Origin: Terribacillus halophilus
Lineage (GTDB): Bacteria > Bacillota > Bacilli > Bacillales > Amphibacillaceae
Assembly (NCBI RefSeq): GCF_900162685.1
Contig: NZ_LT727828.1
Span: 894,824 to 958,823, forward strand
Direction: 5' to 3'
DNA: 64,000 nt
Part shown: positions 34,654 through 59,320 of the stretch, in pieces
Layout: each line of letters opens with the position of its first letter
How positions within the stretch are numbered: the first letter of the stretch is position 1
Position numbers and translations under genes: made by a program
The notes under the pieces: generated by a model
What the model saw: only the letters and a program-made list of their open reading frames with translations
What the model was told of the DNA's origin: nothing
The model's database searches: none

Positions 34654-35075
34654 GAAGAGGCTGGGACATAATTGTTTAAGTTATATAAAAATCCAAACAA
34701 TATTGCATTGTTTGGATTTTTTCATTGGAAACGAAGATGAGAGCATCGCTTCGGAAAAACACTCCGCTTTCCTGCGGGCGGCTGGTGAGCCTCCTCATGC
34801 AAAAAACGCACGCGATGTCTCTCCTAGCCTTCCTCCCGCGGGAGGCTCCGTGTTTTTCCTACGCTGATTTTTGTATCGGAACCTTCACCCGTGCAGGCAG
34901 GATACGTAGACTCCTCGAAAAAGATAGCGATTTTCTTGTCGGTGTCTACTCAAAAGCCCTTCTTATCCGACGATAACAGCTAAAGTTGGAAAGCGGCAGC
35001 CGTTTGTGAGCTGCATTAAAAAGTATGAATCTGGTCATCGTTCGCTTTTAGGTTGAATTAATCTTGTTTTGTTCC
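34654..35075 (+). repeat. Dispersed repeat, copy 2 (modules A, B, C)
   Basis: Starts GAAGAGGCTGGGAC. Module A is a terminator hairpin (34687-34722, AATCCAAACAAT / ATTGTTTGGATT plus Ts) that ends the gntR transcript. Module B is the GC-rich hairpin; its outer arms are GGAAAAACAC and GTGTTTTTCC, changed on both sides relative to copy 1, so pairing is preserved. Module C contains CTCCTCGAAAAAGATAGCG and a 3' end with GTTCGCTTTTAGG. It fills the space between the converging gntR and sortase genes. Short frames inside it (34652-34976) are not genes. Confidence 0.88.
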
Positions 35076-35080
35076 AGTCT

Positions 35081-35677
35081 CTACTCTGTTTCTACAGGTA
35101 CTGCGGTCCAGACAAATCGCTCTGGTGCATCACCTACGTATGAAAATGGATAGCAAGTTGTTACCGTCAACACTTCATCAGGAGCTGTTGGCACAATAAC
35201 GGTCAAATCGTCTTTATCGACAATCTTTGTGTTTTCGACTTTATATGTAAAAGAACCATATGGCATTTCAACGACGAATGTATCGCCTACTTTCACTTCG
35301 CCCATATTGCGGAATACCGTGTCACGGTGACCGGATAAAACAATCTGATCATTTTGAAGCGGATAAGCAGTTCCTTTATAATGACCGACTCCCTTCGCCA
35401 GGTCGTTGGCATCTGTTCCTTCCACAATTGGTAATTCCGCATCAATCTTAGGGACATGCAGGACACCGGCAACATCGCCTTGGCCAGGTTCAAAACTGCG
35501 TGCTTCCTCTTTCTCTTCCTCGGGAGTGCGCTTTTCTGCCGCGTGTGCTTCATGAAGCATTGATTTAGCAGCTGACAAGGAATCTTTTTGTGCTTGGGAG
35601 GTCGAATACCATTCAAAGCCTCCATATCCGACTAATAGCAGTCCAGCAATGACTAGTATGACAGCGAATTGTTTCAT
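35081..35677 (-). CDS. Class D sortase
   Basis: 198 residues. An N-terminal membrane helix (about residues 3-22) and a charged linker lead to the sortase beta-barrel. The catalytic triad is visible as His in LSGHRDT, Cys in TTCYPF and Arg in APERFVW. TCYPF is typical of class D enzymes such as B. subtilis YhcS, which anchor surface proteins to the wall. No substrate gene with a sorting motif lies in the window. ATG 35677 follows AAAGGAG. Confidence 0.88.
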   Translation of the reverse strand: MKQFAVILVIAGLLLVGYGGFEWYSTSQAQKDSLSAAKSMLHEAHAAEKRTPEEEKEEARSFEPGQGDVAGVLHVPKIDAELPIVEGTDANDLAKGVGHYKGTAYPLQNDQIVLSGHRDTVFRNMGEVKVGDTFVVEMPYGSFTYKVENTKIVDKDDLTVIVPTAPDEVLTVTTCYPFSYVGDAPERFVWTAVPVETE

Positions 35678-41518: not shown

Positions 41519-41953
41519 GAAGAGGCTTGGACATAACTGTTTAAGCTATTTGAAAATCCAAACAACTGCTGTTATTTGCAGTATTGTTTGGATTTTTTTG
41601 ATTGGAGAGAGAGAGCATTGCTTCGGTAATACACTCCGCTTTCCTGCGGGCGGCTGGTGAGCCTCCTCATGCAAAAAAACGCACTGCGGGGTCTCGCCTA
41701 GCCTTCCTCCCGCGGGAGTCTCCGTGTATTTCCTACGCTGATTGTGTTATGAGGCACCTTCAATAGTAAAGGGAGAATACGTAGGCTCCTCGAAAAAGAT
41801 AGCGATTTTCTTGTCGGTGTTTTACTTCAAAAGCTATTCTTTTCCAATGGTAACAGCAAGAGTTAGAGAGGCAGCATCCCTCGGAGGACTGCATTAAAAT
41901 AGTAGGGATGTATGAATTGTTCGCGTAAAGGATGACTTAATCTAGTTGTGTCC
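41519..41953 (+). repeat. Dispersed repeat, copy 3 (modules A, B, C)
   Basis: Starts GAAGAGGCTTGGAC six bases after degU. Module A (41553-41599) is a terminator: AATCCAAACAA pairs with TTGTTTGGATT, with an inner CTGC/GCAG, then seven Ts. Module B is the GC-rich hairpin with outer arms GGTAATACAC / GTGTATTTCC (one mismatch). Module C has CTCCTCGAAAAAGATAGCG and ends near GTTCGCGTAAAGG. The remaining 180 bases to degV (41954-42130) hold nothing I recognise. Confidence 0.88.
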
Positions 41954-42130
41954 TAGGCTTTTTTCTGTTTTCTACAACAGAAATAAATTTGAAACCACGT
42001 AATCCTGAAGAAAAACGCAAAAAATACACACCTTGCAGAGAATGAATTGTCCAGTAGAAGGATGCAAAAAGGACACGCATAGGGTAAGATAAACAGAAAG
42101 AGTGAAAAAATGTAAGGGAGACCGATAAGT

Positions 42131-58207: not shown

Positions 58208-58606
58208 ATGTCCGTACAAAATTATCAAGCGTACCAGCAGAATTCCGTTCAGACTGCCTCCCCGGGGGAGCTGACACTTATGCTCTATAACGGCTGCATT
58301 AAATTCATCAAGTTCGCGCAGCAGGCATTCGAGAAGCAGGATATTGCGGCTAAGAACAAGAATATCCAGAAAGCGCAGAATATCGTGCGTGAGCTGATGA
58401 TTACGCTTGATCCAGAAGTGCCGATTACAGATGAAATCATGCCTTTGTATGATTTTATAAACCAGCAGCTGATCCAAGCAAACACAAAGAATGATCAAGA
58501 AGCACTAAACACAGCGATGGAACTCTTAATTGACTTCCGTGACACGTGGAAAGAAGTCGTAAAACAAACACGTCAGCAGCAATTTGGAAACGGAGCCAGT
58601 GTCTGA
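58208..58606 (+). CDS. fliS: Flagellin chaperone FliS
   Basis: 132 residues starting MSVQNYQAYQQNSVQTASPGELTLMLYNG, the family signature. It binds the C-terminus of flagellin to prevent early polymerisation. AAAAAGGAG lies upstream of ATG 58208; an in-frame extension to 58100 lies within fliD. Overlaps fliT by one base. Confidence 0.95.
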   Translation: MSVQNYQAYQQNSVQTASPGELTLMLYNGCIKFIKFAQQAFEKQDIAAKNKNIQKAQNIVRELMITLDPEVPITDEIMPLYDFINQQLIQANTKNDQEALNTAMELLIDFRDTWKEVVKQTRQQQFGNGASV

Positions 58607-58959
58607 TGAACCGTGTGCAAGCATTGTATGATACGACACTTGAACTCGATACGCTCGTTTCGCAGCAGGTAACAGCGGAAAATCGGGAAGATGTCGTGCA
58701 ATCCTTAACAGAGTTGATGGAAACACGCTCCCAACAGATGGAGGAGCTGCAGCCGCCCTTCTCTCCAGAGGAGGAGAAACTAGGTAGAGCGTTGCTACCT
58801 CTGAATGAGCGAATCAGCTCCAATGTGCAGCAAATTTTCGACCAGCTGAAAGTGGACATGCGGATCATCAAGAAACAGAAACAATCAGGCAAGAAGTATA
58901 TCAATCCGTACGCGAGCATGCAGACGCTTGACGGCAGATTTCTAGATAAACGCAAATAA
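58606..58959 (+). CDS. fliT: Flagellar protein FliT
   Basis: 117 residues, all helical, starting MNRVQALYDTTLELD at the TGATG junction with fliS. Small FliT proteins bind FliD and other export substrates in this position of the operon. The family is poorly conserved, so context carries weight. Confidence 0.85.
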   Translation: MNRVQALYDTTLELDTLVSQQVTAENREDVVQSLTELMETRSQQMEELQPPFSPEEEKLGRALLPLNERISSNVQQIFDQLKVDMRIIKKQKQSGKKYINPYASMQTLDGRFLDKRK

Positions 58960-59320
58960 AACGAGATTAATTCAGAATAAAAGCGAACGTATAATACATC
59001 ATACTTTTACTTAATTTCTCTGACGGCTGCTGCCTCTCCAACTCTGCTGTTACTGTTGGCTAAGAATAGCTTTTAAAGTAAGACACGAACAAGAAAATTG
59101 CTTTTTATGTTCGAGGAGTCTTCCTATTGCGCATACACTTAGGGAACACACAAATCAGTGTAGGAAATACACTCCTGCAGGAAAGCGGAGTGTATTTCCG
59201 AAGCGGTGCTCTCATCTTAGTTTCCAATCCAAAAAATCCAAACAATTCCGTTGTTAATTGCAGTATTGTTTGGATTTTTATATAGCTTAAACTGTTATGC
59301 CCAGCCTCGTTTTCTTCATG
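58960..59320 (-). repeat. Dispersed repeat, copy 4 (inverted, module B shortened)
   Basis: Read on the minus strand this copy starts GAGGCTGGGC (near 59310), with a module A hairpin at about 59231-59278 (AATCCAAACAAT/ATTGTTTGGATT), which also works as a terminator on the plus strand for fliT. Module B has lost its GC-rich tip: GGAAATACACTCC and GGAGTGTATTTCC now form a simple 13-bp stem with an 11-base loop (59164-59200). Module C follows and ends with the GTTCGCTTTTA motif near 58983. Confidence 0.85.

Follow-up and report, generated by a model that had tools for sequence, protein, structure and literature searches.

An IS1182-type MITE of Terribacillus halophilus that very likely replaces terminator hairpins with its own

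Introduction

The window analysed here, a stretch of 64,000 nucleotides of Terribacillus halophilus DNA (contig NZ_LT727828.1, positions 894,824 to 958,823), raises the question of what repeat stands four times at the ends of genes or operons, and how it came to stand there. A sequence-only reading of the window had described four copies made of a terminator hairpin (module A), a GC-rich hairpin (module B) and an AT-richer tail (module C), and had considered a non-autonomous mobile element, a spread terminator cassette or a family of structured RNAs. Using a combination of methods (BLAST searches, comparison of sites with related genomes, folding-energy calculations and pairing statistics on aligned sequences), we analysed this repeat in its own genome and in relatives.

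Results

The four copies of the window

All four copies were found at the places given by the sequence-only reading, with bounds that are now set by terminal inverted repeats and differ slightly from the earlier ones. Copy 3 is an element of 439 bp between its terminal inverted repeats (41522-41960, forward strand). It comprises, all on the forward strand, the left terminal inverted repeat GAGGCTTGGACATAAC (41522-41537), one base off the IS1182 3' end; module A (41553-41600), a terminator-like hairpin with a T run on each strand; module B (41615-41744), a GC-rich structured repeat scoring 122 bits with our model R1; and the right terminal inverted repeat GTTGTGTCCTAGGCTT, a diverged form (41945-41960). 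Copy 2 (34657-35081, forward, 425 bp) has a gntR-family gene on one side and a convergent sortase gene on the other, and carries a short-loop form of the module A hairpin (34690-34722, forward) and a module B of 105 bits (34743-34870, forward).

The common A-B-C order proposed earlier holds for copies 2 and 3, and is incomplete in the two others. Copy 1 (2179-2440, forward, right boundary approximate) is truncated to the left end, module A (hairpin at 2213-2259, forward) and module B (2285-2413, forward, 126 bits), without module C and the right end; the same place in relatives also holds a decayed copy (genome G002) or a fragment matching module A (genome G003). Copy 4 (58960-59308, reverse strand) has its right terminal inverted repeat truncated beside the gene end at 58959, a module A hairpin at 59231-59278 (reverse) and a module B collapsed to 58 nt (59152-59209, reverse, 35 bits).

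As to the genes named upstream of the copies, Pfam confirmed MMPL and GntR/FCD, and assigned the third gene to response regulators with a GerE domain, which fits a putative DegU, while the fourth (58546-58959, previously called FliT) had no Pfam or NCBIfam match. No open reading frame of at least 100 amino acids lies wholly within any of the four copies; two such frames only cross an edge.

Copy number in the genome

The expectation of many further copies was borne out, with similarity extending beyond the terminator hairpin. A BLAST search of the T. halophilus genome with copy 3 returned at least 86 matching pieces (best E value 2.7e-127), a lower bound given that the best 40 of 71 first-look candidates were scored. 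From the BLAST searches we compiled at least 39 loci, fragments counted, a list that may be incomplete because these searches scored only part of the candidates. One further locus, L109, is interrupted by an IS3-family insertion. The repeat family is thus real, with about 40 loci in the genome and a full-length element size of about 430 bp.

At L109 (contig C12, 498556-500289), the IS3-family element sits in the loop of the MITE terminator hairpin A. This IS3-family copy, lying between end matches that are 1.7 kb from each other, initially looked like a candidate for the mover and turned out to be an insertion into the module A loop. As for the distribution of the family, the 1.13-2.38 Mb region of contig C13 holds one of the 29 MITE loci of that contig, where about 14 would be expected under an even spread.

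Terminal inverted repeats shared with IS1182

The ends of the element form a terminal inverted repeat, GAGGCTGGGACATAAC on the left and GTTTTGTCCCAGTCTC plus variants on the right. The commonest forms of the right end read, as reverse complement, GAG, then ACT, AGC or CTT, then GGGACAAAAC. The left 16-mer was found with at most three mismatches in 30 of the 39 loci, and the right one with at most five mismatches in 30 and at most three in 25; of 402 stretches taken from the window as controls, the copies themselves possibly among them, 3 passed the left-end test and 11 the right-end test. The left flanks of the elements are mostly A-rich and the right flanks T-rich.

These ends agree at every base with those of IS1182-family insertion sequences of the genus and the family, and mostly keep the left/right difference of the latter. 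The left end GAGGCTGGGACATAAC is identical to the 3' end of the IS1182 elements of four genomes (G005, G010, G023 and G026), the 5' ends of which read GAGGCTGGGACAAAAC or GGGGCTGGGACAAAAC, and the 3' ends, as reverse complement, GAGGCTGGGACATAAC. The right-end forms GAGACTGGGACAAAAC and GAGAGCGGGACAAAAC are identical to IS1182 5' ends in G003, most likely Terribacillus sp. DMT04, the IS1182 elements of which have GAGACT or GAGAGC where others read GAGGCT. From these matches, the left end of the MITE corresponds to the 3' end of the IS and its right end to the 5' end. At position 13, which distinguishes the two IS ends, 29 of 30 MITE left ends have a T, and 24 of the 30 right ends have an A. 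An IS1182-family element of Staphylococcus epidermidis (54% amino-acid identity) has GAGGCTGGGACATAAT at one end.

The MITE encodes no transposase, and its kinship to the IS1182 family lies in the ends only. Among 31 genomes searched for the IS1182-family transposase (NF033551), 23 had a match at E 0.001 and 13 exceeded the cut-off. The T. halophilus assembly itself gave no match to this model at E 0.001, so that the mover would be elsewhere, lost, or within an assembly gap.

We also examined the stop codon of the transposase frame in IS1182 copies (L154, L155, L157, L158, L177, L178, L179 and L260, with L156 as the exception). The frame has no stop inside the IS in seven of eight Bacillaceae copies (five genomes) and in the S. 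epidermidis copy, and the first stop of such frames occurs 7-106 bp past the right end, in the host DNA. In genome G008, nine IS1182-family transposase copies each match in two pieces, with identical scores and stops, and apparently represent a broken yet multiplied element.

Terminator hairpins at the unoccupied sites

Both flanks were found in a fetched relative for 20 of the 39 loci, all on contig C13, with syntenic stretches for the further C13 copies taken from G002 and G003; the other 19, including all ten loci on C12, were not bridged by relative sequence. Among the 20 compared loci, 14 are unoccupied in a relative (C13 positions 458617, 524448, 538040, 565360, 826980, 851908, 866603, 929473, 936333, 953783, 978794, 1058161, 1078412 and 1126754), three are occupied in the relatives read (897000, which is copy 1, 427680 and 467310) and three are unclear (458438, 478562 and 606182). 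In all 14 unoccupied sites, a terminator-like hairpin stands exactly at the place of the element and is absent from the occupied form. The gap is 20-36 bp long in at least one relative at 13 of these sites; at the remaining one, 458617, it reaches 140 bp because a second, partial copy adjoins, and the hairpin was located by eye. At 458438, a left-end fragment, no hairpin was seen at the corresponding place in G002, the sequence of which we take as a putative decayed copy. At 978794, where G002 is unoccupied, the insert present in G003 resembles copy 3 over module B and nowhere else.

The copies of the window illustrate this arrangement. At the copy 3 site, seven relatives carry a terminator hairpin and a T tract, G003 carries the element and G005 provided one flank only. 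The copy 4 site similarly has a hairpin in seven relatives. For copy 2, a hairpin was found near the same flanks in G002 and G003, and within a longer stretch in G001 and G007; four relatives have 1.2 kb of other sequence there. As seven relatives each hold a hairpin at the copy 3 and copy 4 sites, we regard the hairpin as the older state.

No target-site duplication, a check that the sequence-only reading had suggested, was seen at the sites read. Its absence fits a mechanism of the IS1272 type, since IS1272 makes none according to the available text of Wan 2017 (PMC5678879).

The replaced intervals are unusually stable. Over 18 sites (14 MITE and 4 IS), their mean folding energy is −17.6 kcal/mol versus −4.6 kcal/mol for nearby windows. 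No control window was equally stable at 14 of the 18 sites, and at the four others the controls folding as well were 1 of 180, 1 of 180, 5 of 182 and 5 of 172.

IS1182 itself behaves similarly. Of six autonomous IS1182 copies examined in G003, five were readable, four automatically and L218, which has a diverged flank, by eye, while the sixth resisted alignment. All five occupy places at which the T. halophilus genome or G002 shows a terminator hairpin. We conclude with high confidence that both the MITE and IS1182 replace hairpins exactly. The earlier claim that the repeat supplies a terminator to the gene upstream is thereby modified: the element does spread a hairpin of its own, and it replaces rather than only supplies a terminator because its insertion removed the native one.

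Module A and the gene context

The element carries its terminator hairpin, module A, near the left end. In four of five scanned copies, module A shows T runs on each of the two strands; the scanning script, which overlooks some forms, did not pick up the remaining one, copy 2, in which a 12-bp hairpin precedes a stretch of Ts. When five IS1182 elements were scanned in the same way, 8 of their 10 ends showed a hairpin with a T run on one strand or both (a weak one in one case), and two of the five elements have such a hairpin at both ends and on both strands. Module A is predicted to terminate transcription in the cell.

A simple ORF caller placed 22 of the 39 loci between convergent genes, 16 between tandem genes and one between divergent genes, with a median distance of 10.5 bp to a stop codon. 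The terminator end lies beside the upstream gene in 14 of the 16 tandem loci and opposite in two. The divergent call was copy 4, for which an antisense ORF had been picked, and it was recounted as tandem opposite. The resulting 14:3 bias (binomial p 0.013, from small numbers and a crude ORF caller) is in modest agreement with selection keeping the terminator close to the gene. The gene context also agrees with a genome-wide study of insertion sequences, the available text of which (PMC9208149) names IS1182 as one of the families found in excess between convergent genes.

Module B, a separate structured repeat

Module B is a separate GC-rich structured repeat that is not confined to this element. 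In an alignment of 33 module B sequences, 18 of the 30 base pairs have changed on both sides, and 93.1% of the cells are paired versus 81.3% in shuffles (none of 500 reaching the observed value) and 35-63% when the sequences are slid. Another 28 matches from 26 loci outside the model, some of them from the genomes used for the model and all aligned by fitting to it, show two-sided changes at 20 of 30 pairs, with 93.7% of the cells paired versus 76.1%. The model matches 43 of the 61 genomes of the order searched, in 37 of 53 genera; in several genomes the counts are minimum values, the best 57 candidates having been scored. The T. halophilus genome has 36 matches, 11 of them at only 35-57 bits, and most of these are collapsed forms, which resemble the outcome of deletions between short repeats located at the hairpin's foot. 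Relative to the genes, module B has no strand preference: at 32 loci of other genomes, the tandem cases are 8 same and 10 opposite, with 11 convergent and 3 divergent.

Module B occurs by itself in T. halophilus at 672974 and 623074. In G010, which represents a different genus of the same family, it lies in stretches read as inverted pairs and is accompanied by neither A, C nor the MITE ends; the ends of these paired elements are like CTGTGACATAAC, and an IS1182 of Lactiplantibacillus plantarum has CTGTGACATAA at both ends. In G026, an IS1182 element harbours module B in the interval that separates its end from its transposase gene. Judging from these short matches, two or more kinds of IS1182-related elements may carry module B. 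Eight stretches of G010 (L119-L124, L126 and L127) each contain a pair of inverted B modules that spans 368-523 bp, and several of them have outer words like CTGTGACATAAC.

Five module B matches of T. halophilus lie outside the compiled MITE loci: three have other arms, one has only one flank, and one looks like a loss of module B in G002. The B modules at 567899, 855862 and 889138 of C13 (L252-L254) have different arms (CGGCAGAAT) and are apparently part of another element. The word CTGGGACAAAA lies close to the module at 889138, a place where T. halophilus, G002 and G003 carry three different forms of module B.

The module B core also appears in three Priestia megaterium plasmid records. Two of the stretches are L258 and L259, and in the latter a 'hypothetical protein' is annotated across module B. 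An exact 33-base pattern of module B, too specific to reveal its spread, retrieved from named genomes five stretches, all from Terribacillus saccharophilus. Phage records gave no match to module B, Rfam 15 gave no match at gathering score across the window (five matches in copy 3 are all below it), and a literature search with module B core words returned nothing relevant and no named family.

We tentatively consider that module B could be a structured DNA cassette, hitherto undescribed and spread across the order, that works at the DNA level, for instance in recognition by a transposase or host factor, or as a cruciform. It would then be an imperfect hairpin of about 125 nt, in which the core strands are invariant and the arms change freely but stay complementary, carried by IS1182-type MITEs and IS of several genera and also found alone.

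Discussion

Alternative explanations

Could the element have been ancestral at these sites, the relatives having lost it and kept a short hairpin? G003 has the same element at three of the tested sites where G002 is unoccupied (851908, 936333 and 1058161), which indicates that part of the family predates the split of that species. However, the hairpins at the unoccupied sites differ from site to site, seven relatives each have one at the copy 3 and copy 4 sites, and an excision leaving another perfect hairpin every time is not credible, so that we hold ancestral loss to be extremely improbable. Spread of a terminator cassette between operon ends by homologous recombination or gene conversion, rather than by transposition, would explain why nearly all copies stand at gene ends and contain a terminator-like hairpin. 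It would not account for sharp inverted-repeat ends identical to those of an IS family, for unrelated flanks, or for hairpins that are exactly replaced, by the IS too, and we consider it very unlikely.

A reading of the entire repeat as an RNA family, small or cis-acting, draws on hairpins A and B and on the strong compensatory change in B. Against it, no sequence of the window reaches the gathering score of an Rfam family, nearly a third of the T. halophilus B matches (11 of 36) are the low-scoring, mostly collapsed ones, B has no strand preference, and the element is bounded by transposon ends. An RNA family is hence hardly probable for the whole element, and the structured-family proposal of the sequence-only reading survives for module B alone. 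Its two other proposals hold jointly, as the repeat is a non-autonomous mobile element that disseminates a terminator.

Proposed mechanism

We propose that the repeat is, very probably, a non-autonomous IS1182-type MITE that is moved by an IS1182 transposase and replaces terminator hairpins with its own. The transposase would recognise the ends of about 16 bp and, as target, a hairpin, by structure rather than sequence; the targets seen look like terminator hairpins 3' of genes. The element would be joined at the feet of the hairpin, which would be lost, the adjacent A-rich and T-rich stretches staying in place. Module A, with its T runs on both strands just inside the left end, would provide a new terminator for the lost one. 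Because the element brings a terminator hairpin in place of the lost one, this exchange would disturb the neighbouring genes little, and tens of copies could accumulate at operon ends. We infer that it is an IS1182 transposase that moves the MITE, and that its copies are tolerated thanks to termination by module A.

The element has the features of a MITE: no transposase gene, a short length, many copies, inverted repeats common to an autonomous element, and presence or absence between relatives, with 14 sites unoccupied among the 20 compared. Target-site duplication is missing and does not apply to this IS type, which is characterised by the replacement of an inverted-repeat target, observed here at 14 of 14 MITE sites and 5 of 5 readable IS sites (one each by eye).

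Relation to known elements

Hairpin-replacing transposition without target duplication has been described for IS1272 and TnSha1 of staphylococci, in the available text of Wan 2017 (PMC5678879) and Furi 2016 (PMC4923244), the latter reporting RNA-seq confirmation that five of seven chromosomal hairpin targets are terminators. Like these elements, as far as that text describes them, the MITE has IS1182-type ends, makes no target duplication and removes its hairpin targets, theirs being removed wholly or partly. Unlike them (an autonomous IS and a transposon), it is a gene-less element of about 430 bp, present in tens of copies and endowed with its own terminator hairpin. Neither paper, in its available text, discusses a terminator supplied by the element, and in that of Wan 2017 (PMC5678879) the word 'terminator' does not occur.

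Similarly to bacterial MITEs, as presented in the available text of a review (PMC10969869), our element is short, gene-less, multicopy and intergenic, with inverted repeats shared with an IS; it differs from bacterial MITEs in general by making no target duplication and having a structure as target. The available text of this review (PMC10969869) does not contain the names IS1182 or IS1272. It describes the SPRITE of Streptococcus pneumoniae as a small dispersed repeat resembling a rho-independent terminator, a likeness to our element by description, not by sequence. A search of open-licence papers found no MITE of IS1272 type and no exchange of one terminator for another. Hairpin replacement by IS1272 was known, and an IS1182-type MITE that exchanges terminators is, as far as these papers go, new.

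Significance

Module B stands out as a repeat family that is abundant and covaries strongly, and we found no function assigned to it. The unoccupied sites in relatives form a natural record of structure-targeted transposition beyond staphylococci. Landing on terminators and swapping in its own would give the element a nearly neutral niche, which would explain repeats at operon ends, and the terminators of such genomes can derive from transposons.
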